Position numbers and translations under genes: made by a program
Shown here: positions 22,155 to 59,045 of the stretch, in pieces
How the letters are laid out: each line of letters starts with the position of its first letter
Numbering within the stretch: the stretch's first letter is position 1
The notes under the pieces: model-generated
Database searches by the model: none
What the model saw: only the letters and a program-made list of their open reading frames with translations
What the model was told of the DNA's origin: nothing
Assembly (NCBI GenBank): GCA_963575645.1
Contig: OY754472.1
Coordinates: 29,947,401 to 30,011,400 of the forward strand
From: Xanthostigma xanthostigma
Lineage: Eukaryota > Arthropoda > Insecta > Raphidioptera > Raphidiidae
DNA: 64,000 nt
Direction: 5' to 3'

Positions 22155-22190
22155 GTACGTGCATTTCCATAATTGTTTTGGTGTGAAAAT
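22155..22190 (+). CDS. Candidate 36-nt microexon 1 of an unidentified host gene
   Basis: A strong acceptor, ATATTCTTTTTTCTGTTCCAG, immediately precedes this 36-nt segment and GTAAGTTT immediately follows. If the first base completes the previous codon, the segment reads YVHFHNCFGVK and ends with two bases (AT) of the next codon, so both introns would be phase 2 and length 36 preserves frame. A second candidate at 59010-59045 has the same length, phase and splice context and encodes YVHF at the same place, with third-position changes (TAC/TAT, GTG/GTT, CAT/CAC). This pattern argues for duplicated exons under protein-level constraint rather than chance. Frame 1 contains a stop. The gene is not recognised, and inclusion in mRNA is inferred. 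No other exon of the gene is seen nearby. Confidence 0.6.
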
Positions 22191-23339
22191 GTAAGTTTAA
22201 AATATTGTTTGTTTTTTTTTAATTAATTGCTTAATGCTCGATTGTATTGTCAGAAAATTTGATTTGACAATGACCTTAGATGGTGATCACACATATTTCT
22301 AAACTGTCTAAAATCCCTTTTTATAATAAGATAATACTTTTTCTTCATACCTTGATCGAAAGTACGTACTTTTGTCCCTTATAGCAGGGACGAAAGTTTG
22401 ACATTTACTCTCTGTTATTTATTATATTAAATGACAGCGGTAATCCTAGTTACGAGTATAAATACGCATGAGAAATTTTTTCCTCCCGCCGTTCTCACTG
22501 GGAGTAAATGTCAATCTTTCGTCCCTGCTGACGAAAGTACGTACTTTCGAGCGGATATGAAGAAAAATCGTATACACCACACGGGCCTTAAAAGTTGAAA
22601 TCTTGGCCCTTGTGATGTAATATACTATTATTACAAAACTTGCCTCTCATCTGTCGATTTATTTAATGCAAAAACACGTTTAAAAACCCAAGTAAGCCGT
22701 CAGGACTCAGGATTAGTATCGGGAGTAAAATCTGATAAATCAATTGCATGCAGTTGGGATACATGATATTTCAGCATCCTGTACTTGTGCATCTATATTA
22801 TGTATGTATGTTTAAAACCCGACATCCTGTTGTGCAGACACCAAGTCGGTATTGCAGGTATCTTACCTTGTACGTGATATCATCTTTCTGCATGTTTAGT
22901 GTCCGGACTTCGATTCTCGACATACGGGTTTCACTTAACTTCCAGTCCTTGCCGCCGCCGCGCCACTATTGCATGCGAGTTCCTTCTTCCTCGGCTGCTT
23001 CTCTTATAACTTAAAACGGATAACAGCTTGTTTCTATAGAGTACAATGTATTCAGTTTGACATTCTCCCCGGGGCTTCGTGTTTACATCTGCACATGACG
23101 ACGTCTGTCGTTTATTTCATCGTGTCTAGACTACTCGATCTTATTTTTTTTTCGCGTAAATGAATTTAAAAATATTGGATCTGGGAGATGTTATGAATCG
23201 GAGTGACTGTTAAGCTTCACTGGTCTCTCGTTTTAACGTAATGTCAACTCGTATAATACCTTCATGTATTTCTTGCCGGTCCTCCAGATGGAAGGAGTTT
23301 GTTCTAACACGGCTTTAGGTTTACTATATATTTAATACC
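22191..23339. other. Unannotated, presumed intronic
   Basis: Lies just downstream of microexon 1. Moderately GC-rich parts (22800-23120) contain frames of 60-90 codons without recognisable features. A pair of near-identical words, GGGACGAAAGTTTGACATTT at 22387 and its partial complement near 22505, forms a loose inverted repeat around 22360-22560 together with AAAGTACGTACTTTYG. Confidence 0.4.
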
Positions 23340-23640
23340 CTCTATATTGCTAGCAAAGATCTGGAGAAAGACTTAAACACTACGGTGCAGACATATATCT
23401 GTCTCACGTATTATACTCTAAGTCTCATGCGCATGTCCGTGAATGGACGCGCGTCAATTTACACATGGAACTAACTGTGAAGGGGAGGTCACTTGCTCTA
23501 TTCCACTCTAATGGCCCCATTGTAGACGCGACACTTGCGCACAACGGGTCAAGTAAAAAGAAAGAGACTGCAGAAAAACAGTCATTTGCTGTCTCACTTC
23601 ATGGGCCACGCTTCCACTTACGGCCACTAGCAATATAGAT
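23340..23640. repeat. Possible small inverted-repeat element
   Basis: CTATATTGCTAG at the left is mirrored by CTAGCAATATAG at the right, about 300 bp apart. Composition between is higher in GC than the surroundings. No target duplication is seen, so this is tentative. Confidence 0.3.
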
Positions 23641-23644
23641 ATAT

Positions 23645-23875
23645 GAGGTTTACACACGGATTTTAACGGCGCACGGGGTAGAGCCCTTTTGTGAGACGTG
23701 TGACACTCGAGTCACCGTTTCAACTGTTTTAATTCAATGTGTCCAGTTTAGGGTCACACGACAGCAGATCGAATTGTCAAGTGATCTGTCGGTGGTTTTA
23801 GGAAATGATCCTGATAATGTCGATCTGCTGTTTCGATTTGTATCTATTTTTTTCCCTTTAAGGCGCGCTTTTTGA
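23645..23875 (+). pseudogene. C-terminal remnant of a LINE ORF2 (I/Jockey-like)
   Basis: A 76-codon open stretch ends at TGA (23873-23875). It reads GVEPFCETCDTRVTVS and then TVLIQCVQFRVTRQQ, ending VDLLFRFVSIFF. This matches the C-terminal pattern of non-LTR retrotransposon ORF2 proteins, with a Cx2C pair followed by T-V-x-H-x-L-x-x-C; here the histidine position holds T, suggesting decay. The reverse transcriptase and endonuclease lie upstream in complete elements and are absent here, as expected for 5' truncation. Clade assignment is tentative. Confidence 0.65.
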
Positions 23876-24150
23876 TGTGCGTCTGGAAAGTAAAAACATG
23901 CCGAACGGCATGACGCTCTCTTATGCCGTCGTGCCTCCTGTATACCACCGCTCTCGACTCCCTTGTGTGTGCGCGCGTGTGTCGTTGCGTGTGAGCTGTG
24001 TAGTGCGTGTGCTTTTTTATTCGACTATAGTATATATTATTATTCACCGCTTGTATACAGACTATGTTTCACGACGCCTTCTTTTTTTTGTTAGTGTTTT
24101 TATTTATATAGACCTAAATAAAGTTGTTTATTTTTTTTTTGTATTATTAT
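23876..24150 (+). mobile_element. LINE 3' untranslated region and tail
   Basis: Follows the ORF2 stop directly. It includes a palindrome CATGCCGAACGGCATG, a TG/CG-rich stretch (GTGTGTGCGCGCGTGTGTCG) and an AATAAAG signal near 24117, then a T-rich and ATT-repeat tail. Together with the pseudogene this forms the 3' end of one 5'-truncated insertion. Confidence 0.5.
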
Positions 24151-24299
24151 TATTTTAAATTTTGTTTTTATATATCTGTATTATATACCTAGATGCTGAT
24201 AACCGTACGTGTTGAGCGTTTATAATCTACACTATAATCTTTCGTTTACGAACGCAATACAAAACTACTATTAGATATAGTAGCTTATCAAAATATACC

Positions 24300-24366
24300 G
24301 GTTATACCAAAGATAACATCGAATTCAAATTTTGAATTCGATGTAATTTCTGGTATACCCGGTGCG
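24300..24366. repeat. 67-bp hairpin
   Basis: ACATCGAATTCAAA is followed immediately by TTTGAATTCGATGT, and outside this CCGGTTATACCA pairs with TGGTATACCCGG (one mismatch), with small internal loops. The whole could fold as one stem of about 30 pairs. Too short for a MITE with visible target duplication. Confidence 0.6.
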
Positions 24367-24879
24367 GTTTGGTCGCCTTGTCTTGATTTGGGTTATTTAC
24401 TACTAGATAGTAAATAAACGGTTTAGTATCATTTTTTTGTTTTTTTATACTTTGATAACGACCAACTTTATTTGCAAAATAAACTATACTTGTTTGTCGA
24501 GTTCGCTGTAGTTACATTTTTCAGCACAGAGGAAATTTATAGTTGTTTTGTGACAGTTGCTGTCATATCTACATATTACAAATTTATTCAATGAAAATTG
24601 TAGCTTTTTATGGATATAAATATTATGTCAGATTCGAGAGGTTGCATTTGGGTTGGCATTATTCCGAAAAAAAGTGTAATAAATCCACCGTTAATATAAT
24701 ATATATGCTCAAATAATATATATGCACAAATAAAAAGAAATTCAAAGGCGGAATTCATTCTGAAAAAAAATCAAACTCGATTTTCGATTAAATAGAAAAT
24801 GAAAATATCAATTTTCGAATCGTTAGTCGATTTTTTTATAAATTAAATGGTTATAATACTTTCGTTTATATGAATGCAT

Positions 24880-25310
24880 GTAACTAAATTACCTATTATA
24901 TGTTTGTATCTATCTAATGGAATCTTTCAATTTATTAATCATCCACTTCTAGACTTCTGAATAATTTGAAATTTTGCACACGTATTAATAAATAATCAAT
25001 GACAATACAATAATTTATAAATTTATACAAGTACAGTCATTTGAGTGTTGGTTTTTAGGGTTATATTTAAAATGAGAGTTTAAATAAAAGAACTCTAAGA
25101 AAACCAGGTTTTTATAGCAATGCGTACTAAAAAGTAAAAAATAAATTTTAAATATAATTAAGATATTGTTCAACAGCAGTGAAGTTCATCTATATCGAGT
25201 TGGGAGGCTTTCTATCGCTGTTAAACAAAATCTTTATATTTAAAATTTATTTCTTACTTTTTAGTCCACATGCCATCAAAGTGTTTTTTTAAGTTTTTTT
25301 CTAAACTCTA
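24880..25310. mobile_element. Repeat family L, diverged copy
   Basis: Matches 55320-56060 in order: the GACTTCTGAATAATTTGAAA block, then CAATGACAATACAATAATTT, then an inverted repeat built on TACTAAAAAGTAAAAAATAA and its complement (TTATTTCTTACTTTTTAGTC). Diverged, so an older insertion than the copy at 55 kb. Confidence 0.5.
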
Positions 25311-26109
25311 TTTCTTGCTGTAAACGTTAAATACAGTAAAATGAAGCCATCGCGTGTTATATACGGACTATCAAACGTGTTTTTGTGTATGTATTGGCAC
25401 ACCAAATGCTTGTTTCTATCGAAGCAGGACCTACATTTCATTAAACGTGTCCTGTAACATCCCTATCTCATCCGGTATCCGTCAGCCGGTTTCCACGTCG
25501 AACCTGTCGTTAAAAGATCTCACACTCGCCTACCATACACATTGGAACACTGAAATTATAATAATCTATATCTTAAACAGGTGGGGCGTTTATCTTGAGA
25601 CATGCTAATATCTTCGATAAAAGTTTCAGACAAAAGTTGTTTAGTTTGAAGGGGGACATCGTTTAGAGACAAATACCACCCCTCACCCTCAACCCCTGCG
25701 CAGGGATGAGGGTGACTTTGACATAGGAACACCTATTTTTCATAATAATTTATGATTTTTCGAGAAAAAATACGCAACATTTGTCTGAAATATTTTTTTC
25801 CCGATGTCTCACTCAACCTCTAAAATGCATGTCAAAAATCGGTTTCCCGAAACTCCATTAAATTTTTATACCTAAACCTTGCACAGAAAATTACGAGAGG
25901 TACCTAAATGTTGTTTGATTTGGAAAAAAATCATCGATTAAATATAAAAAAACAAGCCCCCTTTAATTATTAAAAATTTCAGTTACCCCTACCCCCGAGC
26001 AGGGGACGGTGTTTTTTATATTTTTTATCGATGACCCTTTCCAAAACCAACTTAAGTTCACATAACAAGACCATAATGTCTGTATTATAATAATAATAAT
26101 AATTTTCCT
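25311..26109. other. Unannotated region
   Basis: Contains CCACCCCTCACCCTCAACCC near 25678 and a similar C-rich patch near 25985, separated by AT-rich sequence. An 84-codon frame at 25354-25608 has no recognisable domain. No element ends found. Confidence 0.35.
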
Positions 26110-26340
26110 ACAGTGTTTTCCATTAAATATTTATTATATTAAAAGAAATTTATTACTTAAAAAAAGTATAAATACTGCTTTTTAACGACAAAAACTTTTA
26201 AACGATAACTCCGATCATTATGTAGTTTGGACACATTAACATTCATCTCGGTAAACTAAGATGAATGTGAGTACTCATATGCCCTTCCTTCCTCATTCGT
26301 TCTTTTGCACCCGGGTGAAACCGGGCAGGACGACCGCTAG
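26110..26340 (+). mobile_element. Helitron family A, 3' portion
   Basis: Shares ATACTGCTTTTTAWCGACAA and the ACTCCGATCAT block with 57139-57330 and ends with hairpin CACCCGGGTGAAACCGGG, then CTAG (26337-26340) before T. The 5' end is missing. Confidence 0.75.
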
Positions 26341-27790
26341 TACACTATATTGTCGACAGGGTTTTGACACTGGCACCCGAGTTTGTTTGTTTTTTTTTTT
26401 TTTTTTGACCAGGGCAGTGTAATGTAATGTCAGTGCACCGAACTGTAACCACTGGCTATGCCAACGGCAGAGCGGTGCTTCGAACTTCCTCTCGGTATAG
26501 CTCCGGTAATGGTGAAACTCTCGCAAGTGCCGTAAGTGTAATCCCACAGCGCGAAGACACTATAAAGACGATGGATTAACTTTAATAATCTATTAGCGTA
26601 GTTTACTTGAAAGGTCTACACGTGACTTGTATGTATTGAATGTGCATCTACCTCAGTCAATTGTAGATTATAGACGCTCAACATCTAAGCCTATCGGCGT
26701 ATAGTGCCCGCGGTGAGAGTTGAAGCGAGGCACGCCATCAATAATATGGTAGTGAATGCCTACTTGCCCGCAGACAGTAGCGTGTGGAATAAATTCGACA
26801 TATTTATTTATAGCGGTAGAATAAAAATAAACACTCGGCGCACATGGATCTCCGAAACAGTCAAAAAATACGCTGAATCGATTTAGGCCTATGCGCAAAT
26901 TCGTATCTCGAATAGATAAGAAGCTATGACGGTTTAAAATGTATAAAAATAAAACAGTAAAAATTGACTATATCTCCGAAACTAAAAGAGATACAAGCTT
27001 GCGGATGGTCGGAATCGATTCAGGGTGTTTTTTCTGTAAGGTCGGTCTGGCCTCAGGGAATGTCGGGACTTTTCCCGATTTGCCGCCGGTCTTGTCCGGT
27101 CCGGATCCTTTTCTTACACAGTCTCGTAGCAGCATTTTATTTTCCCGGTAATTTTTTAGGTCCCAGACCGACCCTGGTGGCAATCTACAAAATCAGATGA
27201 AGCCAGACCTGGCCGCTATTTTATAAATACGAGTATGTACTTCAAATGGTTGCTAATAGCTCATTTCTGAAAATCACTGTAGACTTGGCATGATCCCGGT
27301 CTAATGTTTAAATTTACCGTACTAGTGCGTAATTGGTCACTTCACATGCCTGTATGCAGCTATTTTATAAGGTTTAGTGCAAAGAATTAATTGACTAAAT
27401 TGGCGCTATTGTAGCATAACTAGAAATTTGCGTGAATGAAATCGTTATAAAAAATTTATGCGTTTAAAAACAAAAGAAATGTTTAATATTGTTATTTTTA
27501 TTTCGGTGAAATCAATAAGCAACGTTAAAACAACAAATTATAAACACAGAATAATTTATATACTTCTAAATTTCTCTTTCTAAAATAGCATTTTTTCTGC
27601 ATATTTTTTTATGATAAAAAGTGCAAATATGTTCATATTTTTATTTTAAATCATCAGTGCATAAATACGCAATTTCGCTCACTGATTGTCACCTGTTGTA
27701 GACTATCTACTTTCATTTTCGATATTATAGAAATAGAAATTTTGTCTTTCACAATTAAATAGAGAGATTTAAGAAAAAAAAACGAGTGTG
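26341..27790. other. Unannotated region with a short inverted pair
   Basis: GGTCGGTCTGG near 27041 is mirrored by CCAGACCGACC near 27165, enclosing a GC-richer stretch with several frames of 70-78 codons that overlap on both strands and show no domain. The rest is AT-rich, including 27480-27780. Confidence 0.4.
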
Positions 27791-27794
27791 CTTT

Positions 27795-28345
27795 AGATCA
27801 CACGACTAAAGTAAAACTTCTTCCTGCCATAATTTGTTATTATTCACCTGAAAATTCACAAAATATGAATTTTAAAATGATTTTACAATTTTATTCACTT
27901 TAAACGTATTGAACAAAATATTAATTTATAAAATTGTTCAAGAACGAAATGAACAGTCTAATGTACGAAGAAAGAAATATAAACATAAAGATAATGAAAA
28001 AAAAAGTAATACATTGCAATTACTTAGCTCTCGTTGGCTTTTAAGCGTAAATCTTTATGAAATATTATTTAAAGTAGGTTTACAAAACTTTTTTTTGTCA
28101 CCCGATAGCGCCACTGGCAAGTAAAGTATGTGTCATTTTATTGTTAGTACTACTTATATTTTCGGCCACCTGATGGCGCCACTAGCCAGTGAAATATTTG
28201 TCATCCTCTTTCTATCTTCACTAACTTATATCTCCCTCTCAACTTCCGTTCGCCTCGCCCGACCACACTTCCGTAAATCTCTCGTCACGCATTCACCAGC
28301 TTACTCCCCAAGTCAAGCGTGCCTAAAGAAGTTTTACTTCAAAAA
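27795..28345. mobile_element. Repeat family J, inverted-repeat copy
   Basis: GACTAAAGTAAAACTTCTT at the left and AAGAAGTTTTACTTC at the right form inverted ends. The interior has a repeated phrase GATRGCGCCACTRGC (28105, 28170) and a CT-rich strand around 28200-28300. The two frames of 71 and 84 codons inside are not conserved in the other copies. Confidence 0.5.
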
Positions 28346-28479
28346 CTGTCACATTAGCAAGAAAAAGAAGTGTCCAATGTAGCTGATATGTTCTTTTATA
28401 TTATTGACCTAGCGAAAGAGGGGAATGAGGCTACATTTTAACTTGACCGTTGAATATTTGGCTATTTGTTTGCGTGTCT

Positions 28480-28808
28480 GCTCCTGAATTATGCAGATCA
28501 AGACGTTGATCAATTTTAATCAAATTTGGCAGCAGCATTTTTTTGAACTTAGGCTACATATAAATCATATAATAAACGGGCAAGTAAACAAGTTGTGGTA
28601 CCGATTTGAGTGTGTTAATTCGCACACAGTGTGATCAAACATATATCATTCTCTTCGTTTTAATGAGGGGAAGTGCACAATATATGTTTCATCACAATAT
28701 GTACGACATAACACAGGTAAAATCGGTTCAGGAGAAATTCATATAATGACAAAATAACTTCAACAACATTCAGACTTACTAATTAAATGAATTACGGTCG
28801 ATCACTAG
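28480..28808 (+). mobile_element. Helitron-like family F/G copy
   Basis: Has a Helitron-like 5' phrase (TTTTAATCAAATTTGGCAGC), then AATGAGGGGAAGTGCACAAT and ATATGTTTCATCA as at 13600, and ends ATCACTAG before T. The hairpin is not obvious. Confidence 0.5.
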
Positions 28809-28836
28809 TACATAGTGTTGTTGATTGTTGATTATA

Positions 28837-28937
28837 GACGAAACGTCGTACATTAATAAATCTAATTTGTCCACTATCCTGCGATTTTTCTTATTAATTA
28901 TTATCTCGATGGACACGATATCTAATATATATGTAGG
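28837..28937 (+). mobile_element. Hammerhead family a, truncated single-arm copy
   Basis: One arm only: TAGACGAAACGTCGTACATT, then GTCCACTATCCTGCGATTTT, and the tail TATCTCGATGGACACGATAT. The upstream half of the core is missing, so no hammerhead could form from this copy. Confidence 0.65.
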
Positions 28938-29209
28938 AGGTAAACACATATAGCACGTAATTTACGATCAGTATCAAAAGCAGAGTAATAAATCCACCAA
29001 ATTAAAATTCATACCGTTAAGGAAATTGTAAAAATACTAATTATAAATAGTAAATATCTGAGCAGTTGATTATTTATGGGAACCAGAAATCATGAAACTA
29101 TTAATTTTAAAATACCTACAAGGTGTAAGTTTTAAAAAATTTACTTTGTCTACACGCAATTTTATTGATACAATTATTTATATCAGTATTAGAGAAGAAA
29201 TTAGTTAAA

Positions 29210-29400
29210 CATGCTTTGGTTGATTTTTGCATGAAGTGATAACATATTATACATAATGTAAAGATGACCATGAAAACGACTAGCAAATATCATAATACTT
29301 AAGAGTGAAATAAAATTACATTATTATGAATTTTATTTTCTGCATTATGTCGAAGTTTTTAAGTTGGAATGGTTCCGTCGCCCAATGGGCTGGAATATTA
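29210..29400 (-). repeat. Family D fragment
   Basis: Matches 44395-44590: AAACATGCTTTGGTTGATTT, then AAGTTGGAATGGTTCCGTCG and CCCAATGGGCTGGAA. Confidence 0.5.
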
Positions 29401-29419
29401 TATATTAATGCAGATAAAT

Positions 29420-29555
29420 TTTATTTTAACGCGATAATATACACCCTCAAGGTCCATATTTTTAAATATTGGTGAAAAAAACTTTGAAATCCGATGAGTA
29501 GTTTTGGAGATTACCTCCTACATCCGAACTTACAAACTTTCCTCTTTATTATATT
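29420..29555 (-). mobile_element. Helitron family H, 5' portion
   Basis: Complement of the family H start: GGAGATTACCTCCTACATCC followed by AACTTACAAACTTTCCTC, as at 40550 and 61505. The 3' hairpin end is missing. Confidence 0.5.
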
Positions 29556-29859
29556 ATAGTATATAGCCATATAGGTATCTATAACTTGTAGTACCTACAC
29601 TCAATATAAAAAATACGCCCATACACATATTATGCTTACTATATAATAATAAAATGTATGCTTCGGGTGATTGCACCGTTTTTAACATAGTATTTATGGT
29701 TTTAACGTACCATGTAACAACTGCGTGTATCACTTTTACTTTCAAAATCTAAATTTATATTTTATGCATTAGCAGACACAGGGGAGCACCGTAATATTAT
29801 ATTGAATTGAGGTCATCGATTCAAATAATAAATTTACAATTTAAAACAAGTAGGAAATA

Positions 29860-30665
29860 GAGATGGGCATTGCCGAATTTTACCGCTAGGGGCTCTAGCT
29901 ATATAATATATATCGATGTTAGCAGTGTGTACAGATTACAGAATAAGTTTATTTTAAAATAATTGACCTTTGCCGATTTGTTGCGTTTACCAATGTTAAG
30001 ATCATCTTCGAGGTTTTGCATTTTCAAAGGTTTCGAAACTGAAAACAAGTGGTTACATATATGGCTATCAGAAACGACGAAAACATTGTTTATAACGATT
30101 GATCGCGCTAGATTTTTTCAGTTGAGGTCGATAACTTACGTACAATATTTATGATTTTTTAAAGATTTTTTTGAACGATCCTTTTGCTGATAATGGTGGG
30201 GGGCAGCTATTTTTATTTCTTTTTCCCGAAAAATGTTGAACAAAAATCATTTGACACCATCCACGATGCCTTGACAAAAATGTTTTTTTTTTTATTTCTC
30301 AATCTACCCTCTGAAATTAACCTACAGATTCAAAATTCAACTGTATTTGGGCCATCACACTCATTTGCCAAATTTCAAAATTTTTACGTCGAATAGTTTC
30401 AGAAACGGACGAAGCGATTCCATAAGTGTTCCGTTTTGCACGGAAATACATGAGTTTTTGTTGATATGGTAGCTATGAAAATCATGAATGCTTTACAAAA
30501 ATTCGTTCCACATAAAATGCAACACACATCGGGCGCCCAAGGAAGGTTCGTATGATTTGATGTGGAACGATTTCTTGCATTAATGATTTCCTTTTAATGC
30601 ATTACAGGAAATCGTTCCGCATAAAATGCAATTTACCTATAATACGCTTCTCATGTGCCCATCTC
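29860..30665. mobile_element. TA-flanked inverted-repeat element with internal hairpins
   Basis: GAGATGGGCAT at the left and TGCCCATCTC at the right are each bordered by TA, consistent with Tc1/mariner-type insertion. Near the right end, TTCGTTCCACATAAAATGCA and ATCGTTCCGCATAAAATGCA are direct repeats with an inverted copy between them (TGTGGAACGATTTC). About 806 bp, no transposase. A TAGAGATGGGCA hAT-type end is an alternative reading. Confidence 0.55.
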
Positions 30666-30798
30666 TATTAACCGTATTCTTTATCCGCGCATCTAGCCGA
30701 TTTTTTTTCAATGTCTTTCAGTGAAGAAAAGTATGTAATTAATTTATGCAAAATGTCTTTTCTGCAATTTGTGATGCTAACTACCTCTTAAAACTATT

Positions 30799-30841
30799 CA
30801 TTGAAACGACATAACATAATTCAATGAATAGTTATGCTGTC
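30799..30841. repeat. Short perfect hairpin
   Basis: AACTATTCATTGAA and its exact complement TTCAATGAATAGTT are separated by about 13 bases. No other feature surrounds it. Confidence 0.55.
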
Positions 30842-31081
30842 CAATTCCAAGACCGAACGTTGGCGACGCAATTAAAACCGTCTTTTTGCATATAAAATGT
30901 GCATTATGCAAGCATTTGAAGTAAGACGAGCCGCTTTAAGGTATGAATACGGAATTAGTTTTTTTCTTTATATTCCTGTATGCAGAATAGTCGAAGTAAA
31001 AGTAACGTGGTGACATACATTGGTTTGTCTTTTTTTTAAATATCATTGCTCAAAGCTTTAATTTAAATTACACTAATATAT

Positions 31082-31160
31082 AGTGTAACCTTTTTATAAC
31101 GAATCTCAAGGGACCGAGCATTTTTTTCGTTATAAAGAGTTTTCGTTATATAGAGGGAAG
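31082..31160. repeat. Possible pogo-like MITE end
   Basis: GTGTAACCTTTTTATAACGA and later TCGTTATAAAGAGTTTTCGT resemble Tigger-type terminal wording. The second end is not found. Confidence 0.35.
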
Positions 31161-31790
31161 AAAGAAAAATAACCAAATTTCACCTAATTAATTTATTCCA
31201 AACACATATAGTCTGTTAACTTTGCCTGACGTTTTTTGATTTTGTTTTGTATTTTATTAAGTATCTTATGCTGCCTTGAGATGTGGTGGAATCATCCTTA
31301 TTAAACAATAGGAATTTTTCGATAAGTTTGGCGGAGACTGATAGGCGGACAAAATATTAAGACGTTCTTTTTGAACCCCGGAAGCAGTATCCAGAGTATT
31401 CTGTTAAATTAATTGTTCTTATAATTGGTGTTCTTGGAGGAGCCAAATCGTCACTGTTGGCAAAAAATCTATTCCAACATGTCAGTGTAATGCTGAGTCA
31501 CTAGTCTATCGCATGAAAAAAGCCGTGCTTATCGGGTCGCTCCGTGTACTCCGTGCGCACGACCTAAACTCACCGTAATCGCTCATTTCATGGTTTGAGA
31601 CGCGGTGATAGTTGCACCTTGCTCCGCAAGTATCTCTTGTATGACGGTGACGAACCTGAAGTTTTGGGATGCAGAATTTTTTACGGATTTTTTTCCTTCT
31701 CATAATAATAATAATATTAATAATAATGCGTTTAACGTCATAACAGACGCCATTCGCACCATTACTATTTTTATTTATTTTAGGAGTTTG
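31161..31790. other. Unannotated region
   Basis: No element ends recognised. An AATAATAATA microsatellite lies at about 31701-31725. Opposing 65-69-codon frames overlap at 31506-31814 and are not credible genes. Confidence 0.4.
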
Positions 31791-31794
31791 ACAG

Positions 31795-32014
31795 GTTATC
31801 GGCTATGGCTTTGAACAAGGAACCATCTAGATACCTATCTGGAATTATTGAGGGAAACCATGGAAAACCTTAACAAGATGGCCGGTGCAGGAATTACTGT
31901 TTCTCGGCGAGAGGCAGCAGGAAAAAGTCCTTGCCACCTCTGCCCCCGCCTTGATTCGAACCCGGTACCTCCCGAATGCGAGTCTTGCTCTCACCACTAC
32001 GCTACATCGCTCGG
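31795..32014 (-). mobile_element. tRNA-derived SINE
   Basis: Read on the minus strand, a tRNA-like head carries A-box TAGCGTAGTGGTGAGAGC and B-box GGGTTCGAATC, followed by GGTTTTCCATGGTTTCCCTC and ATGGTTCCTTGTTC-like wording, a tail phrase I associate with repeats in many insect genomes. The order head then tail fits a SINE transcribed by RNA polymerase III. Ends and target duplication are not sharply defined. Confidence 0.65.
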
Positions 32015-47728: not shown

Positions 47729-49944
47729 AAAAAAAACAAAGTTTTATACTTAACTCGGAACCTATTCGTGTGTGCAAAATTATTAATTTTTTATGTATTG
47801 TCAGTGTTTTCAAAAAATATAATTTTAGTGAAATGTGCCTCTTTTTGGGGGCATATTCCTAAACTCCCAACACATTGATATTAATTATAATAATTATTAT
47901 TTTTAAGACCATCAACTACTAACACTTCATATTGTCAATTAATTATTTTTTGATAATAAATTGAAAATAAATAAGACATTTTCACCAGAATGGCAATCCT
48001 AGATCTCAAACCTATATTAATAAAAAATTCAAAATATTGTGCCTTGTAGCTTTTTTCCGCCCTCCGGTTTCCAAAATATATTTTAAAATAGGTACCACTT
48101 TTTTGGAACAAGATAGTTCTTAATTTATTTCATTTTGAAAACAAAATTCAGAATTTTATAAAATGCCTCAGATGAGCTTATCTTTCGAAAAACATATTTT
48201 TTAATAAATTGTTCCTTTTGAAAAAAATTGACGTCAAAAAATGTTATAAAATTATGTCTGTTTGGTCGTTTTGCCTATAGGCATAATATAAAATAGTGGT
48301 CACAACCCAGAAGCACACGTTTTTTTTACATTTACGATTAAAGTAATCAAAACAAATAAATTTCAAAAATTCTCACTGTAAACCACAGCCTTTTCAAAGT
48401 AAGTCATAAGCGTAGTGGTATACTATGTAATTAGTCGCAGATGACATTTGTGGTGATGACTCAAAAATGTTTCCATTTTTTTTTATTACATAATTATATG
48501 GTATTGTCCTTTTACCTTCGTTTTACCTTCTGCTAAATTATCCATAACGTCCTACGACTTACCTATATAAGTCACTATATTGTATTTTATAAAAGTTGCT
48601 TTGAAAATATGTTGCAAAACGTCAGAATAAATAATGGTGGCGAAGAAGCGTATGAAAATTTCATTTAGTGTCATTGCCTCAATTGTGTAAGGTGAAGTGA
48701 GGTAAGATCGGACCTGTTTTTGTAAAGTTCCACTTTTAACACATTTATTTTTATGGCCTTTTTTAAATATTTAACATATTATATTGGTATCAACGCAAAG
48801 TAGAGTTAACACTCTATAATTTGTATTGAAAAAAACACGAATTTTCCCTGGAAGTCGTTAATAATGAACGGCTCCTCGGAGCGGAGCGAGTCGCTCTTTT
48901 TTTGTGAATGACTCACTCCGAACGCCATTGCTCTGTGCTGAGCTATTCTGTACTGTTGCATTCGCACATTTACAGTGCGCACACAGCACAGACCACAGAG
49001 GCACTAGTGAATTTTGCACCTACAGAGTTATCTTTGCTAAGTCATTTAATGTTGAATGACACACTATAAGTGTAATAGTACTAAGCTTACAGTGACTTAA
49101 ACCATTATTGTTCAGCTTTTATTATACTTTATAGTTTATCCGAAATGCAAATAATATAAGATCAGAATCATATTAAAATGACCTCAGAGCTGAGTGTGTG
49201 TATTGTGCTGTGCAATACTACGTAACTCCTGGGCATGTATGATGACAGTTCACACATCTGCAGTCTGCACTCTTGTGTAATGCGTACTGTCTAGTGTCGC
49301 TCCTTTGAACGACTTGCTCTGAGCGACTCTTTAGTGAGCGGAGCGCACGAAGCCAGTTCCCAATCCCATCACTACATATGTGTTCCATTTGTGTTTTCAT
49401 GAGACTGTATGCAAAAATTGATTAGGATGTGTGATAATTCCACATGGAACATTAGAACTAATCAAAGATTCAAATGGAACTGCGATAATCCGCAGTGTGT
49501 TTTTTATGAAACATTATATTAAGGCGATGACTTCATTGAATGTGTAGCAAGAAGAGAGTGTCTCAAACGAGTGAACTTAAATGAGCCGACAACAATACGA
49601 CGCTGCCGCCCCCCCTCACGCACCTCCTCGTACCGCTGGGTTATTGTTTCACGCTCGACCTGTGTCATTAAATGTTACTTCAAACGTGAACCTGTAAAAA
49701 CAATCTGTGCCGCGTACCGACTTATAGAGGGCCGTTTCACATTGAAAGGCATGACAATTGACAGTCGGATCTCTTTGTTTTCTTGCAACTGATGGAGATG
49801 ACAGGAACAGAGCGCTGAAGAATGAAGATGTTTTTGATAACACTAACAACAGAGTTGCCAAAAGTAATCTATTACACTTTTTAGTGTCTGCTAACTTATA
49901 CATTCCTGATCAGAATTATCTCACCGCTGTTTAAACCACGAGTT
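47729..49944. other. Long stretch without recognised genes
   Basis: AT-rich to 48850. Then 48870-49000 and 49310-49360 carry opposing GAGCGAGTCGCTC / GAGCGACTC motifs, possibly the ends of an undefined element. No open frame of note. Confidence 0.4.
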
Positions 49945-50017
49945 TATTGATTGGTGTAATGGTTAGCATGATGGCCTTCGGATCAGACTGTCGTGGGTCC
50001 GATTCCCAGCCTCGCTC
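49945..50017 (+). pseudogene. tRNA-like pseudogene or SINE head
   Basis: A-box TGGTGTAATGGTTAGCA and B-box GGGTCCGATTCCC are correctly spaced. The loop CTTCGGA would give anticodon UCG (Arg). The acceptor stem does not pair, so this is a degenerate copy or the head of a SINE, not a working tRNA gene. Confidence 0.5.
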
Positions 50018-51506
50018 CCGAGTGGTTTGTGATGTATGTTGCTTTAATTTGATGGAATTTGTCAATTAGGTGCGTCTATAAATCTGCAGTAAACAAATTC
50101 AACTGTAAAAAAGCATCAGTAAAACAAGACTCACGTCAATTCGAAACAAACAATACTCACTTCGGTACAAATACGAACATTCTCACACCACCGAATCAGT
50201 AACTATCCAACACCCACAGTGTGTAGGCCTTCATTTATTCTCTTGTATTTAAAAAGTGCCGATTACATCGGGCCAAAAATAGGGTTGGGACTTGGAAGTA
50301 ACTCAGTTCTGAATCGATTCAAAGATCGGACTCCAACAGAAGATCCGTGGGAGCCAACTCACTTCTTTCTGACTCGACGGCTCAACGGATCGGTACTCAG
50401 TGGAGCATTCTCTATACACGTGACACTTGTGCACCAGAGCCAGAACTGCTCCAATGTTCTGATGAATCAGTCTTTACTTTGTTTCATCTTTGTCTCGGTA
50501 GTCCATTACAGCACGGTACATTATCTGTTCTAGGTAGTAGGTTATACGGGATCAAGATGCAAAACATTTTTCACATCTCTAACCGAAACGAATCGATTCC
50601 GTGGGTGTCCCTATTATAACTGTACCCACGTTTAAGGACTATTTTTTCGGTGCACCTGTATAGTACAAATCTATTGAATTATTCTAAGATTCTTAACGTA
50701 TGGCTTTCTGTGTCGTGAGACTTTTAGTAGATACCCTAGTAGGCTGTAGACGACCTGCCTACGCGCCATAATGACTGTACAATATGCCGAGGCTTTAATT
50801 CTTTTCAAATAAATGCCTTACTTCCTCTCCATGTTGCACGGGGCATTGTATTCAAAACACCTTGATTACTCCCCGCGTCCGGAAGTCTGCTTCGTGAACA
50901 GAAGTGAGATTCGTTGTTCATTCACAAAATGTGTTTTAATTCACCATCTGCTCCGGTTTTTCCGGAACGAATTTGTCACTTATAACATATTAAAATATGC
51001 GCCAGGTGGAAATGAACCTGTCAGACTTCGATGCACTGGAAAAGTTTGGAGTCAAATGAAAAAAAAACAAACGTTCGTGGTCAAAAATTTCAAGAATTAT
51101 ACAAAGAGATTAGCTAGTATTTACGGTATACCCCTTATATGCATATGGGAAAGTCAGCGATCGGGACACCTGACGTCGAAGCGCATTGAAAGGTGTAAAA
51201 AATAGAGTTTTTTTTTAAACTGTAATTGTGTGGTTACAGGGTTATGTTAATATGAAAAAAATAGTTGGCAAAACCAAAAGTGCACATCCCGCAAGTTTTC
51301 CACTGTATGATAAAAAAATAACAATTAAAAAATATTTTTAATAAATTTAAAAAGATTTGAAAGAAATAAATAATTAAAAATTGAAATAATATTTTTTTTA
51401 AGTTTGCAAAAATAAAAAAAATTAAGAACTATACATAATATAATATTATATAATTAATACCAAGTGGAATAAAATAAAACAGAATAAAAAGAAAAAAATC
51501 AATTAT
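50018..51506. other. Unannotated region holding the longest frames
   Basis: Frames of 104 codons (50219-50533) and 130 codons (50813-51205) are the longest conventional ones here. Neither has a recognisable domain, signal peptide or splice context, and composition does not differ from the surroundings, so they are not called as genes. 51200-51480 is A-rich. Confidence 0.4.
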
Positions 51507-51580
51507 TCCGTAAGGAATAGAACCCAGGACCGTGCCCTTGGGGATCTAACGGCATAACCATTACGCCACGAAGCCTACCA
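51507..51580 (-). pseudogene. tRNA-like pseudogene or SINE head
   Basis: On the minus strand A-box TGGCGTAATGGTTATGCC and B-box GGGTTCTATTCC are present, followed by an A/T-rich tail. The acceptor ends do not pair. Probably a tRNA-derived retroposon. Confidence 0.5.
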
Positions 51581-52204
51581 TGTGTAGTGATGTTATCACG
51601 GTATAGAAGTGTAGCACTTGTTTTATGGATTTACACTATATTTACACAGCAATTATTATATTGTTTTTTTTTTAAACTATTAGCTGTCAAAAATAATAAA
51701 ATAAAACTGTTTATAGAAATTAAACTACTGAACACATTTTAGTGAATTTAAATAGGGTTCTGGTCTGATAGTAAACAAAGTGAATAAAATATAACCCAAG
51801 GCAATCCGACCAAAATTGCGATCTGTAGAGTCGTGACGTACATACGTTCATACGTACAGATCAACCGACAACTGCTGTTTGTGATTTTCAATTACAATTT
51901 TAATAGTATTTTTGAACTCGAATTGATTTAAAAATGGTTCTGTTTTATAGATTAGAATCTCCTCTTTTCAAAAAGCTTCAATTTGAATGGATTTCGTGTG
52001 AAATTAACTTAGATATAACTTCTTATATGAATGAAAGTCAGCTCTGACGCACAAAGCGATAATAAAGCACATACCGCTAGTTTAGCGGTATTTGCAAAAT
52101 AGTCAGACCTAATAAAACCTGCCGAGTCAGCAGTTGGTAAAACTTATGAGTGCTAAAATATCAAAAAGCAAATCCATCGCTACCTGGACTTACATAACCT
52201 TTAC

Positions 52205-52745
52205 GCGCGATTGAAGTAAAACTTCTTTTAATTTGTTTTTATCATTATCACTTTTTGGGAAAAATTCACTTACAAATTAAATCATTTGTAAATTAAATTA
52301 TGTAGACTATGCTTATTGGTTTCCGTCTTTAGCTATGTGCATTTTAATACCGCCATCTATCACTCGATGCCTTTAGATAGCGGAAACCATAACAAAAACG
52401 TGCGTCCGTAGCTGTGTTTCACCTTTCGTTCAAGATGGTTTCTACAGATGCGTTTTGATGCCACCATCTGCCAGTCGACGCCTTGAAATAGCGGAAACCG
52501 ATCGCAAAATTGGTTTACCTCCGTAGTTATGTTTCACTGTTCGTTCAAAATGGTTTCTACAGATGCGTTTTGGCGACGGCATGTGTCGGTCGATGCTTTT
52601 ATATAACAGTAATTGATTACAAAATTGGTTTGCACCCATAGCTATGTTTCACCTTTGGTTAGTTAGTCGATGCCTTTAAATAACGAAAACTGCGTAAAAA
52701 CGAACTTCCGTTTGAAAAAAGATCGCACTTAAAGAGGTTTACCGC
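52205..52745. mobile_element. Repeat family J with internal tandem units
   Basis: Begins TTGAAGTAAAACTTCTTTT and ends with the diverged mirror CTTAAAGAGGTTTACC. Between 52320 and 52710 about four units of roughly 115-120 bp repeat GTAGYTRTGTTTCACYKTTS, GGTTTCTACAGATGCG and GATGCCTTTARATA. Non-coding. Confidence 0.65.
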
Positions 52746-53182
52746 AAAAATCGATGATCTTTCAATAATTATTATTCGATGTGAACGTCGATTATCTAAA
52801 AATGTTTTAGAACAATTGTCATTTTTCAGTTACTACATACAGTAGTATCATGCTGATAGGACGATTGCAGAGTAACGAACGCATTGAATAATGATTGAAC
52901 ACACATTTGCAATCAATCACGACTTGAATTCATTGAGTACCTGCATTCATGCAACAATGGCTGCACTCGTTATGCAACTCTTGTTTGCAGTTTTATGCAG
53001 ATATATAAAACGGTTTGATTCCCTCAAATTCTTCAATTTATTGTGCATACACAATGCATATAATGGATACCCAAACTGGAGGACATCGGCGGATTCGTGA
53101 AACGTGAATACTTTAATTGTATTCAAATGTAACTATTTCTATGACGTGATTAATAGTTCGTCAATTTCATACGCTGATTTAA

Positions 53183-53607
53183 GGCAGCTGCACACGAGGC
53201 TGGAAACACTGCATGAACTTATACTGGTCGGCAGGCTGGGTACCAGACTGGAAATGACGTCACTGCGGGCTCGTCTGCTAGCTCACAAGACAGATTTTAA
53301 AATTAGAACAGGGACTATTTTTCTTGCTAGGTCCTCTGCTTGCTCTGAGCAAGAACCAATCAGGAAGCACTATCTTGCCACGTGAGCGACATGAACAAAC
53401 GCCCACAAACAAACATGGCGTCATTCTGCTCACAGTCAGACAACAGACACGTTTTGATCTGTATTTATATTTGAACTGTTACTGCGCGTAAACCAGATCC
53501 ATCCGCAAAGCAAGCTTGAAAAGACGAAGCGAGCACATAAAACCAATCAAGTAAACCAACGCTAGAAAACTAATAGTCAAATCTAGCAATGAATCTAGGG
53601 GTAAAAA
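53183..53607. mobile_element. MITE family I, extended copy
   Basis: Starts GGCAGCTGCACACGAGGCTG and follows the complement of copy 2 through GACGTCACTGCGGGCTCG and GCTAGCTCACAAGA, then carries about 190 extra bp before CTAGAAAACTAATAGTCAA and AATCTAGGGGTAAAA. The far terminus is lost. The 93-codon frame (53104-53385) arises from the element. Confidence 0.55.
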
Positions 53608-54240
53608 ATATATATTTTTAAAGAAATAAAATATAAAAATGGTAGTATTTTTTAATTATAACATTAATTAAATCACAAAAACTATCTTCGGATTGTATGA
53701 ATCCGCCTGTGTACATATTCAGACTGAAAGTTTGTAATTTTTTGTTGTTAAAATGTTAACTGTAGTCTATCAACACTGTCAAATTGAAAAACGTCGTATA
53801 TCGAGTTTTGTTGTTTTTCTTTTTTATCTTTGGATACTTTTATATTATGAAAAGTGACGTTTTGAATTAAAACTTGACTTCTCAACTTCTTTGTACATGA
53901 CAACTTCCTTTTTACGTGGAATAACATTTCACTATAATCTACCCTATTTATAAATTGTATGCACGTTGTGGTTTTAAATAGACTTGTGGGATTTTCATTT
54001 TAAAATTAAAAAAAAATGTGTTGGCTTATTATGTCGACAAATTAGTATAGAAACTTTGTTTTCGAAAACTAACTAAACTAACGATTTGACATGTTTCAAT
54101 ATTGCCGTCTAAAAATGGTGACGGTTCAAATAACATGTAATTTTATTAACTTAAAATTCATATCTTGTTAAAAAAAGCTTAATAAAACAAAGCCTATACC
54201 TAGCATTTCTGAATTCATAAGAAACATTTCAAAATAAAAC
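53608..54240. other. Unannotated AT-rich region
   Basis: No feature recognised. Confidence 0.4.
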
Positions 54241-54457
54241 AGGTCAAGTGTGAGTCGGACTCGCACACGAAGGGTTCCGTACACTATGTACTTTTTAAAT
54301 ACTTTTGTAAAAGAAACAAGAGAGGCGCTATAACAATATGTAACCAGTGGGAGTATGCAAGTAGTTCAAGAATTTCAAGGCGTGAAATTTTACATAATAC
54401 ACCCCGCCGTTTTTATATTATAAACACTAATTTTACAAAAATTTCTTGTAGAATAAA

Positions 54458-55060
54458 ATAATATAAAGTTTTGATAAATATACCATTATATCAAATAACA
54501 ACGTTATGGCAAATATCTCTGATGCGCATACGCCGATTTCCCCCAAAAAAAAAAATACAAAACTTTAGAATATTAAACCATTATGAAAAATATACCATTA
54601 TTATATAAAAACAATGTTATAGCACATATCTCTTCTGCGCATGCGCCGCCTTTCCCCCTAAAACTTTTTACAAAACTTTCTTTTAAACCATTATGAAATA
54701 TATACTATTATTATATAAAACAACTTTATTGCATATATTTCTTTTGCGCATGCGCCAATTTTTCCCAAAAAATTTACAAAACTTTTGTAAACATAGATAG
54801 AATAATAAACCGTTATGAAAAGTATGCCGTTATTATATAAAAACCAGCCTTATAGTATATATTTCTTCTACGCATGCGCCGATTTTCAAAAATTTATTTT
54901 ACAAAACTCCTGTAAAACAAAATAATAGTAAGCCATTATGAAAAGTATACTATTATCTTATAAAAACAACATTATAATATATATTTCTTTTGCGCTTGCG
55001 CCGACGTCTCTCAAAAACAATAGGCCTCTTCATATTTGCATATCAAATATCCTCCCAAAA
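54458..55060 (+). repeat. Five-unit tandem array with GCGCATGCGC core
   Basis: Units of 110-124 bp each contain TAAACCATTATGAAA-like wording, TATACYATTATTATATAAAA and the palindrome TGCGCATGCGCC or a close variant (near 54522, 54635, 54745, 54869 and 54991). The last unit continues into CCTCCCAAAATTTGGTTTCA of family D, so the array is an amplified family D segment. Confidence 0.75.
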
Positions 55061-55264
55061 TTTGGTTTCATTCCGCTCATCCATGGTGTTGGAATGGTAA
55101 AAAATGTCAAAAATGACGTTTGCATCTGTCAAAGCAATGTGTTCTAATAATTAAAATTAGTTATTCAAATCGTTAACTCAGAAGGCGTTGCATTTCACAA
55201 AATACTAATGTCAAAAGATTTGAAATGACATTCGTTTTTGAACAAATGCAATCTTTTTTAAACG

Positions 55265-56062
55265 CTTTATATTAGTTTGGGTTGTAACTAACTATGTATG
55301 TATGTAACTAACTATGTATGTATGTCCGTAACGGAATCTTTGAGCATAATTTTCACCAATTTCCCGAAGTCTGATTAATTTGAAACTTTGCATACGTATC
55401 AAGGACCGATGACAATGCAATAATTTGATAACAGTTTCCCATTATCCTTATTAGGACCCCCAGGATTAATAAATTCTTTTATAGATCCTCTGTAGTAAAC
55501 GCTTTATTTTCACCAATTTCCCGAAGTCTGATTAATTTGAAACTTTGCATACGTATCAAGGACCGATGACAATGCAATAATTTGATAACAGTTTCCCATT
55601 ATCCTTATTATTAAACGCTTTATATTAGTTTGGGTTGTAACTATGTATGTATGTCCGTAACGGAATCTTTGAGCATAATTTTCACCAATTTCCCGAAGTC
55701 TGATTAATTTGAAACTTTGCATACGTATCAAGGACCGATGACAATGCAATAATTTGATAACAGTTTCCCATTATCCTTATTAGGACCCCCAGGATTAATA
55801 AATTCTTTTATAGATCCTCAAACTAAAAAGTGAAAAATAAAATATAGTTTAAAAAAAACTAAAAAACACGCTTTATATCGGACTAAAAAGTAAAAAATAA
55901 TTGTTTTAAAATAAGCTTAAAAAGCGTTGGGCGCTCGATGTACGAAAATGTGGAACAAAGCGCCCCACGCTTTTTAAGCTTATTTTAAAACAATTATTTT
56001 TTACTTTTTAGTCCGATATAAAGCGTGTTTTTTAGTTTTTTTTAAACTATATTTTATTTTTA
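55265..56062. mobile_element. Repeat family L with triplicated block and palindromic end
   Basis: TTCACCAATTTCCCGAAGTC through CAGTTTCCCATTATCC occurs three times almost unchanged (from about 55351, 55509, 55681). Then an inverted repeat with arms of about 110 bp (TTATATCGGACTAAAAAGTA and complement) closes the element near 56062. The near-identity implies very recent duplication or an assembly artefact. Confidence 0.65.
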
Positions 56063-56878
56063 AGACAAAACATACGCAATTTTTAAATTCCCATAGTACA
56101 GTATGCAACAAACGAAGACAGACGATCCCCGTGTATGCTATGGATTAGACAAAATTGAATTTATACATTTTATTTCTATATAAAGCTGTATAAAAAAAAG
56201 TGTTTCGACGAATTCTGTTATACAAAATCTATGTAAAATTTTCTGCTCTTTCGTTTAAGACAGGTCTCGAAACGATCTGATTTAAATTGAGCGACTTATA
56301 AGCAAAAAACTGAATTTGCTCCTCTTTGGGGAGTTTTGGGTTTTTTTTAATTATTTGTTGTTCTAGCGGCAATAGAAATACATACTCTGTGAAAATTTCA
56401 ACTCTCTACCTATTACGGTTCTTGAGATACAGCCCGCTGACAGACAGACGGACAGACAGACGGACAGCGGAGGCTTAGTAATAGGGTCCCGTTTGACCTT
56501 CGGGTACGGAACCCTAAAAAGTATCATCAAAAATCTTTAAAAAGTTTTTAAGTATAATTCGTTCAAGTAATCATACATATAAATGTTACGGCCTATGTCG
56601 ACAATGCCCGAGCCATATCGGGCAATGTCCGAAATCGGACAAGGATAAAAAAATAGATTTTTTATAAACATGAAACGCTGACATTTGATTGTATCTTTAT
56701 CATGATAAGTTATCATTTACCCTTGATCACTGATATCAACTATTGAAGAATATATTTTTCAGCTTTCTATTACAATTATTGATGATTGAAACCACGTTTA
56801 ATTTATTTCGACACATTGTATTTATTTTAATGAATAAAAAAATACAAAAAGGCATTACTAATATAAATAATTATATTT

Positions 56879-57125
56879 TGACGTGATAACGTCTTATAAA
56901 TTGATGAAACACCGGCTGCACGCACGAAAAAGTGTCACGTTCCGCCTGAGCCTGAGCGTGCAAGCGAGAGCGCGGTATAAGCGATAGAGAGGTACGATCG
57001 GCCCAAGCGTCGGCTTGGACGCATTTCTCTCTCTTCTCGCGTGACGTCAGAGAGTTCATCAATGTTTCTTTATGACGTTATCACGTAAAACTATCGTCCG
57101 TAAACCGACTTTACAGACAACCAAT
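56879..57125 (+). mobile_element. MITE family E, complete copy
   Basis: TGACGTGATAACGTCTTATA to ACGTTATCACGTAAAACTAT and CGACTTTACAGACAACC. It has the longest internal part of the family, including CAAGCGAGAGCGCGGTATAA. Nested in the 56584-57819 element. Confidence 0.8.
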
Positions 57126-57138
57126 TTTTTATATGATA

Positions 57139-57724
57139 CTAGCGGTCCCAACCGGTTTCACCCGGGTGTAAAAGAACGAATGGGGAAGGGAGGAACACGA
57201 GTACACACATTCATCTTAGTTTACCGAGATGAATGTTGTGTCCAAATTTCATGATGATCGGAGTTACCGTTCAAAAGTTTTTGTCGATAAAAAGCAGTAT
57301 TTTATACTTTTTTTAACTAATATTTTTTTTTTAATTAATTAAATAAAATTAAAATAAATTTAAATGTAAGCCTTAGAAGAGCAATGTAGAAAATAAAAAA
57401 GAAAATAAAAATGTATTCGCCCAACGTAGGGCTCGAACCCACGACCCTGATATTGACAGTCGTGTGCTCTACCGATTGAGCTAGCCGGCGTTGTATTCTG
57501 ACAACGCTAATATGAGTATATTTAGTTAGTGCATTTCACCTGAATAGAAGCTTATTTTTGAGATACATTTTACAACATTTTTCATTAATGCTCCGCTCCT
57601 AATGCCTATAGCCTTCCTCGATAAATGAGCTATCCAACAAAAAAAATTTTTTTCAATTTGAACCAGTAGTTCCTGAGATTAGCGCGTTCAAACAAACAAA
57701 CTCTTTAGCTTTATATATCTCGAT
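57139..57724 (-). mobile_element. Helitron family A carrying a tRNA-Lys-like sequence
   Basis: The minus-strand 3' end (left) is hairpin CACCCGGGTGAAACCGG with CTAG at 57139-57142. The right end carries the family 5' blocks (CTCAGGAACTACTGGTTC; AAAGCTAAAGAGTTTGTTTG). Compared with 1787-2145 it has about 250 extra bp in the middle, including the tRNA-like segment. Confidence 0.85.
57418..57489 (-). pseudogene. tRNA-Lys-like pseudogene inside a Helitron
   Basis: On the minus strand, GGCTAGCTCAATCGGTAGAG (A-box region), AGGGTCGTGGGTTCGAGCCC (B-box region) and ACGTTGGGCG follow the eukaryotic tRNA-Lys(CUU) sequence closely. The anticodon loop reads CTGTCAA (GUC, not CUU), the anticodon stem is unpaired, and one C is lost from the 5' acceptor strand. 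It is therefore a decayed or re-coded copy, possibly a SINE head captured by the Helitron. Internal promoter boxes appear intact. Confidence 0.7.
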
Positions 57725-57823
57725 GCATTCAATTTCAGAACCTTGTCCGATTTCGGACATTGCCCGATGTGGCTCGGGCATTGTCGACATTGCCCGGATT
57801 CCGGACATTGACCGTAACATAAA

Positions 57824-58990
57824 TTCACCTGAAGACTAGTTTTAAATATTCACAAGTAGTTACGTAACACTAAGAAGTATATGAACACATGTTGTGATTT
57901 ATTTTTCTATTTTCTCTAAAAGTAATTTTCTTTAGAGCTTGACAGGTTATTTAGAATTCTGTCATTCTTTTACAACGAACACCGTACAATGAATAATCGT
58001 AAATACACTTGTGTTTATTGTGAGGAAGTAACTCATCTAAACATTTGAAATTGTTAACCTCTCTTCAGGAAGTCGGTACCACTAACTTTTCATAATAATG
58101 TAAACTTTCCGAGCACGATATAAATTAAGCGAGACTCTAAAAATGTTGCTCCATTCATTGTTCACAAAAATAGTACACCTTAAATCGCGTGACCGACTTA
58201 AACCAATTCCTGATTGGATTATTAAAAATAAATATTTATGAAATCATTGCCTTCTATGATAGATTTCAATTTATTAATACAGTCAATTTTCAAAATATAC
58301 TGTATAACAGTGAAATAAAAATTAATGTCAAATTAAACATAGAAATAACTGATTTGACATTAGCAGCGATGACGTCACAATATCAGAATATATTCAGACA
58401 AGCACACGTGTAAACTTAGTTAAAATTATGACGTCACTTCCACAAACTTTTTTAAAACTTTAAAACGTATAAGTTTCGATACATATCTATTTGTTATTAA
58501 ACTTGTCGATTTTTTATTGATTGATTTTAAAAAGAATAGTAGTCTTTGTACTCGTATCTTAAGCGTAAAGAATGTTATTATACGAATGTCAGTGAGTTTT
58601 TACAGTCTCGCGTGTCTTGCTACATTTTTGCACATACCCTCTATAAAATAGCTGGTTTTCATATAATTTTCTGTTGTCAATATTTTTGACAGTTGCTTAT
58701 GAAAATTACGCCTACTACCTATATATCAACAAATATTTTTAATGGTAACTGACAGGTCATTTATAGAAATAACTGTTGAATTGATTAGGTTGCATTTTTT
58801 TTTGTTTTACTTTACGTACTAGTGCTAAATGAGTCATTTTACGACCTTTATATTATAAAAGCAGCTATACGTATGTTTCATAAGGCGGTGTGCCAAAACA
58901 ATTTTATAGCCCGTAGGTAAAATTTCAACTTACTCTGAACACCTAGGTCCTAGATTATTTTTTTTAGTGAAAAATGTCATTTTTAACAAT
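57824..58990. other. Unannotated, presumed intronic
   Basis: AT-rich. 58590-58680 matches 32655-32770. The 74-codon frame at 58189-58413 has no recognisable features. Confidence 0.4.
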
Positions 58991-59009
58991 ATTCTTTTTT
59001 CTGTTCCAG

Positions 59010-59045
59010 GTATGTTCACTTCTATTCTCAAGATAGAGACATATT
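59010..59045 (+). CDS. Candidate 36-nt microexon 2 of the same host gene
   Basis: The acceptor ATATTCTTTTTTCTGTTCCAG, identical for more than 20 bases to that of microexon 1, precedes 36 nt followed by GTAAGTTT. In the phase used for microexon 1 it reads YVHFYSQDRDI, starting with one base of a split codon and ending with two (TT). Positions 1-4 match microexon 1, position 5 is Y for H and position 6 S for N, after which the two diverge. Identical length and phase mean either could occupy the same place in an mRNA, as in mutually exclusive exon pairs. The 36.8-kb separation is filled with transposable elements. Host gene unknown; expression not demonstrated. Confidence 0.6.

Follow-up and report, generated by a model that had tools for sequence, protein, structure and literature searches.

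Two 36-nt segments, 22155-22190 and 59010-59045 on the + strand, lie in a 64,000-nt stretch of the genome of the insect Xanthostigma xanthostigma (GenBank assembly GCA_963575645.1, contig OY754472.1, here C9). This stretch is referred to as the window, and plain positions count from its first letter. Judged from the DNA itself, both segments are very probably recursive-splicing ratchet points with cryptic recursive-splicing exons (RS-exons), candidate sites within an intron of 235 kb that belongs to a Rap1GAP gene. We infer the use of these sites from their anatomy, spacing and strand, and from the genome-wide enrichment of their build. The case is a new instance of a mechanism known from fruit flies. 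A preliminary description of the window had interpreted the segments as alternative coding microexons sharing the peptide start YVHF. The coordinates, lengths, flanks and translations that it gave were all reproduced, and the splice-like signals and the relatedness that it saw between the two segments are real. The features are as follows, with a slash marking splice junctions here and below.

22124..22154, + strand: ratchet point 1, acceptor half, with branch-point-like TTTAC at 22127-22131, a pyrimidine tract and CCAG
22155..22160, + strand: ratchet point 1, predicted regenerated donor GTACGT
22155..22190, + strand: putative cryptic RS-exon 1, 36 nt, host-phase reading VRAFP followed by a stop (TAA)
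22191..22198, + strand: RS-exon 1 donor GTAAGTTT, in the weak exonic context AAT/
58979..59009, + strand: ratchet point 2, acceptor half, with branch-point-like TTAAC at 58983-58987, a pyrimidine tract and CCAG
59010..59015, + strand: ratchet point 2, predicted regenerated donor GTATGT
59010..59045, + strand: putative cryptic RS-exon 2, 36 nt, host-phase reading VCSLLFSR followed by a stop (TAG)
59046..59053, + strand: RS-exon 2 donor GTAAGTTT, in the weak exonic context ATT/
1..64000, + strand: interior of the phase-0 host intron (C9:29928127-30162784, 234,658 nt; the window is C9:29947401-30011400)

Directly after CCAG, the segments start with GTACGT (22155) and GTATGT (59010), which is an acceptor fused to a donor (AG/GT). 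According to passages of a study in Drosophila, such a fusion is what defines a ratchet point (PMC8605326). The flanks are identical, as had been described: the 22 nt AATATTCTTTTTTCTGTTCCAG precede both segments, forming the final part of the acceptor half at either ratchet point, and GTAAGTTT follows both. Similarity between the two sites extends from -31 to +16 (47 nt, 87%), and relaxed gap costs carry the alignment on through T-rich sequence to about +67, at 69%. Within the segments, 10 of the first 13 bases are the same, followed by 9 of the 23 after base 13, where base composition leads one to expect about 28%. With up to three mismatches allowed, a degenerate 35-nt pattern covering the tract and the start occurs twice in the window and in 0 of 100 shuffles. 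Furthermore, a 30-nt pattern and the 20-mer TATTCTTTTTTCTGTTCCAG each gave exactly two matches in the genome (623,323,696 bases, searched by words with very common words passed over), both being the window sites, and the reversed control gave 0. The preliminary description had advised a search for further copies; in these scans of window and genome, the patterns were found only at the two known places. A chance origin of the shared tract is very unlikely. A simple scan of the + strand of the window for open stretches of 12-300 nt between splice signals gave four candidates, among which the two 36-nt segments scored highest.

The window had been suggested to sit in introns of a very long + strand gene, with flanking exons to be sought beyond its ends, and the gene model agrees: a single Rap1GAP intron of 234,658 nt holds the whole window, with a GoLoco exon upstream and RapGAP exons downstream on the + strand. 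When the region was extended to 324 kb, a run of + strand exons was found from C9:30162785. The upstream exon, modelled as C9:29927934-29928126 and ending in CAG, encodes a GoLoco motif (PF02188, 8.5e-11). Translations of three downstream exons were compared with Pfam, and two of them matched Rap_GAP (PF02145; 9.9e-51 and 1.8e-10). The first downstream exon alone gave no Pfam match; its last 20 residues fall within the PDB alignment. The four downstream exon translations, once joined, align with the Rap1GAP crystal structures 1srq and 3brw across residues 89-419 of 421, with E < 1e-130. A GoLoco motif followed by a RapGAP domain is the domain order of Rap1GAP proteins, and both occur here in that order on one strand. 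By these predicted domains, and with exon joining modelled, the host is a + strand Rap1GAP (Rapgap1-type) gene. The intron starts with GTTAGT and ends with TTTTCAG, and it is in phase 0 on both sides (…RCVLPPYFNQ/ASSCHSAQ…); these limits, the phase and the joining were modelled from sequence, so that short exons inside the intron could escape detection. The intron's own donor at C9:29928127 is weak (CAG/GTTAGT, 4.6, vs 7.0-7.8 for the regenerated donors described below).

The two window sites belong to a set of four. Among YAG/GTRNGT sites on both strands of a 264-kb region, the three most pyrimidine-rich all lie on the + strand, at window 22155, window 59010 and C9:30068243, and a juxtaposed weight matrix applied to the same sequence ranks them 1, 2 and 4. 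Within the top 20 matrix sites, these three have GTRAGT 36-41 nt downstream and one other has it, at 13 nt; the expectation for GTAAGT is 0.013 per 50 nt. When the 264 kb were shuffled 60 times, sites reaching the third-ranking score, which belongs to an antisense site, averaged 0.08 (maximum 1). A composite scan of the whole intron for a good acceptor, a fused donor and GTRAGT 25-60 nt on yielded exactly four sites, all on the sense strand and none on the antisense strand, with none in 150 dinucleotide shuffles scanned on both strands.

C9:29969555 (window 22155), C9:30006410 (window 59010), C9:30068243 and C9:30114598 (the last two beyond the window), all + strand: the four composite sites

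With laxer thresholds further AG/GT sites were found on both strands, and none of those listed has a downstream donor. At the four sites the RS-exons measure 36, 36, 41 and 39 nt, branch-point-like YTNAY motifs lie at -28, -27, -27 and -23, and the donors are GTACGT, GTATGT, GTATGT and GTGAGC. The sites divide the intron into pieces of 41,428, 36,855, 61,833, 46,355 and 48,187 nt; under uniform placement, the probability of a minimum segment at least as long as the observed one is 0.0021. The AG/GT fusion, the location in a long intron and on its sense strand, the RS-exon donor tens of nucleotides on and the even spread are all properties of ratchet points.

These sites suggest a path by which the intron may be removed. 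Under exon definition, the spliceosome would recognise the RS-exon through its acceptor and the GTAAGT donor 36 nt on, and the upstream GoLoco exon, ending in CAG, would be joined to the AG/GT point. The joining would regenerate a donor, CAG/GTACGT or CAG/GTATGT, which would outcompete the poorly placed RS-exon donor and serve the next bite, and the RS-exon would be removed with the rest of the intron. Taken together, the four points would split the intron into five stretches of 41, 37, 62, 46 and 48 kb. At sites 1-4 the scores are 7.3, 7.0, 7.0 and 7.8 for the regenerated donors, compared with 3.9, 2.0, 8.1 and 1.8 for those of the RS-exons. The regenerated donor is thus the higher at three of the four sites, both window sites included, which fits RS-exon skipping. 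Retention of RS-exon 1 or 2 would bring in a stop that halts translation ahead of the RapGAP domain.

The same build was found elsewhere in the genome. The pattern TTTTCAGGTATGT-N20-45-GTAAGT, the TTTTCAG/GTATGT form, gave 14 matches and its reversed control one; with the gap shifted to 80-105, it gave two matches, which are near-identical copies of one sequence. The GTACGT version gave five matches and its control none, so that these counts, which cover the GTATGT and GTACGT forms, amount to 19 matches vs one in the reversed control. The acceptor score is at least 6 in 18 of the 19, though only the last seven acceptor bases are fixed by the pattern. Ordinary exons mostly end in G; none of the 19 RS-exons does. 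Their length is a multiple of three in 7 of 19, about the third expected. Three of the matches lie on one strand of contig C8 within 232 kb (11932371, 12080433 and 12164261). The RS-exons of the first two of these have CANTTTCTAAT..AGAATT in common, and the two sites form the most similar of 253 pairs. On contig C5, two other matches are found on the same strand at a distance of 197 kb from each other. The C8 and C5 clusters are perhaps further multi-station introns. A fused acceptor and donor with a donor 26-51 nt on, enriched across the genome, would allow candidate sites to be charted from a raw genome without RNA.

Several observations weigh against the recursive-splicing interpretation. 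An antisense AG/GT site at C9:29929577 takes third place in the matrix ranking, above the third sense site, though it has no downstream donor, and the thresholds of the composite scan were set after the sites were known. The usual ratchet-point donor in flies is GTAAGT, from which all four sites differ. The fourth site is the weakest, with an acceptor score of 5.5, and at the third the RS-exon donor scores higher than the regenerated one (8.1 vs 7.0). All donor scores come from a generic matrix not fitted to the host species, with the upstream exon taken as ending in CAG. Among the 19 matches in the genome, C2:11461011, with its poor tract (0.2), is probably false. Finally, the ratchet-point consensus alone accounts neither for the CAYTTC that both window sites have after the donor nor for their equal lengths of 36 nt. 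As for the third site, passages of the Drosophila study indicate that donor strength alone is not decisive in every case (PMC8605326).

The proposal of the preliminary description, in which the segments are coding microexons that both begin with YVHF and are mutually exclusive or otherwise alternative, appears highly improbable. Their equal length, same flanks, common open frame and third-position-only differences over the first four codons would all suit such exons. These differences are indeed present, but they weigh little, since one of the three falls at the free base of the donor GTAYGT; moreover, 47-50% of the 36-mers of the host intron have no stop in a given frame. YVHF does not lie in the frame of the gene, because the host intron is in phase 0 and both segments hold a stop in that phase. 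The YVHF frame requires two bases from the exon before, and a phase-0 intron supplies none; an extra upstream exon could in principle give them, and none was seen when segments of the region were scored. Nor are the peptides related beyond their start: the likeness is that of the acceptor/donor core, an intronic acceptor with a donor-like start, which is the reverse of what duplicated coding exons share, while the interiors agree at 9 of 23 bases. Neither a phase fit with an open frame nor homologous coding content along the exon was found, and the segments lie 36.9 kb apart. The two further sites of the same build, with lengths of 41 and 39 nt, are without YVHF. The "YV" is the donor consensus GTAYGT read one base on as protein, a case in point of how a donor consensus can pass for a conserved peptide. 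YVHF-coding 12-mers have four matches in the window vs 0.58 expected, two of them besides the pair, at 52334 (+) and 62091 (minus); the one at 52334 begins AG/CTATGT, without a fused donor, and was set aside. Coding-like and splice-bounded open segments were also scored on both strands of the 264-kb region. Ten such segments, some of them outside the intron, were compared with Pfam, giving two zf-RVT and one HTH_IclR match, all below curated cut-offs, and no match for the other seven. Neither Pfam nor PDB gave a match for a 121-nt candidate at C9:30108715, which is, by its sequence, presumably a repeat. Rfam and tRNA scans were empty.

A closer relative of the recursive-splicing reading is that RS-exons 1 and 2 are expressed, like the Drosophila Ubx microexons m1 and m2, as microexons sometimes kept in the mRNA and here acting as stop-bearing regulatory exons. 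We consider this improbable. In its favour, the two segments are of equal length, divisible by three, and lie tens of kilobases apart in one long intron, much as Ubx has two 51-nt microexons in a single long intron, and the RS-exon donors have GTAAGT. Set against this are the stops in host phase at both window segments, the weak exonic donor context (3.9 and 2.0 vs 7.3 and 7.0 for the regenerated donors) and the divergent interiors, whereas m1 and m2 are conserved over all 51 nt according to passages of PMC8605326. An in-frame, stop-free segment, as expected of the Ubx type, is absent from the window sites and present at site 4. There, the 39-nt RS-exon at C9:30114598-30114636 (VSKDSKAFRPQLI, GC 0.44) has no stop in the host phase. 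It could be a real expressed Rap1GAP microexon, though its donor context is weak. A transposon-borne pair that carries a splice site by chance is barely credible. The window is repeat-rich, and stretches 117-200 nt upstream of site 1, together with others downstream, match regional repeat copies. However, the 20-mer occurs only twice in 623 Mb, and similarity fades past about -31 and +16, with no same-offset match in the 8-kb flanks.

As candidate ratchet points with cryptic RS-exons, sites 1 and 2 raise the question of where such a near-identical pair comes from. The exact 20-mer is found nowhere else in the genome, which argues for a common origin of the two cores. No other match at the same offset was found within the 8-kb flank on each side. 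The cores probably share an origin, with the flanks and the RS-exon interiors having drifted since. It is plausible, though we stop just short of calling it probable, that ratchet points are copied inside a growing intron: a core of about 47 nt, from the branch point to the donor and including the spacing to the RS-exon donor, would have been duplicated 37 kb away, with only the core under selection. If true, long introns would gain splicing stations by duplicating old ones, and the near-identical pair offers a concrete test of how they gain ratchet points. A general duplication of ratchet points was considered and rejected. When 23 sites were compared in 253 pairs, mean similarity was scarcely higher for the 11 pairs from the same locus than for the rest (22.3 vs 20.7, standard deviation 3.9), although the best ranks of the same-locus pairs were 1st, 6th and 19th. 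Duplication is therefore put forward, as a hypothesis, for the window pair only. In the portions of text returned by the literature search, no paper visibly links ratchet points or RS-exons with duplication.

Other repeats were observed around the sites. Near-perfect inverted repeats occupy window 34095-35255 and 35778-37145, with arms of 255 and 306 nt that are 99% complementary and with nested inverted repeats inside; they are probably foldback elements. At window 54495-55017, a 55-nt unit around GCGCATGCGC is repeated five times with gaps between the copies, and more copies lie at 4894 and 45376. Further along the same Rap1GAP intron, C9:30145871-30151343 resembles a long terminal repeat (LTR) retrotransposon, with frames that by eye look like gag/pol between direct repeats about 5 kb apart.

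The literature found on recursive splicing, as far as its returned portions go, concerns mainly Drosophila, human and mouse. The search gave no paper pairing Rapgap1 with recursive splicing, and none of the matches listed pairs recursive splicing with Lepidoptera. Mutually exclusive duplicated exons resemble the pair in equal length and related flanks. In contrast to such exons, the coding content here is not homologous past the donor-like start, and the frame does not fit the gene. In Drosophila bruno-3, passages of one paper propose that the splice sites of exon 4a, which have unconserved sequence between them, persist because a 36-kb intron is spliced recursively through them (PMC2767349). 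That exon was observed in mRNA, whereas the segments described here are known from sequence. Ubx m1 and m2 are two equal-length microexons of 51 nt in one intron of about 73 kb, with recursive splicing there (PMC8605326, citing Hatton et al. 1998, in the passages available), and the present segments differ in their stops in the phase of the gene and in interiors that are unrelated to each other.

The closest resemblance is to the Drosophila ratchet points themselves, as passages of Joseph et al. 2021 (PMC8605326) and Pai et al. 2018 (PMC6110457) describe them. Shared are the fused acceptor and donor, the long intron, the sense strand, a short RS-exon downstream whose donor is mostly the weaker one, and several evenly placed sites per intron. 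Fly recursive introns likewise tend to even cutting, into pieces of about 9-15 kb (PMC6110457), as compared with 37-62 kb here, and RS-exons of 36-41 nt stand against about 50 nt in flies (PMC8605326). The present case further differs in its species, in the Rap1GAP gene that hosts it, in the GTAYGT donors at three of its four sites and in the near-identity of two of its four cores.

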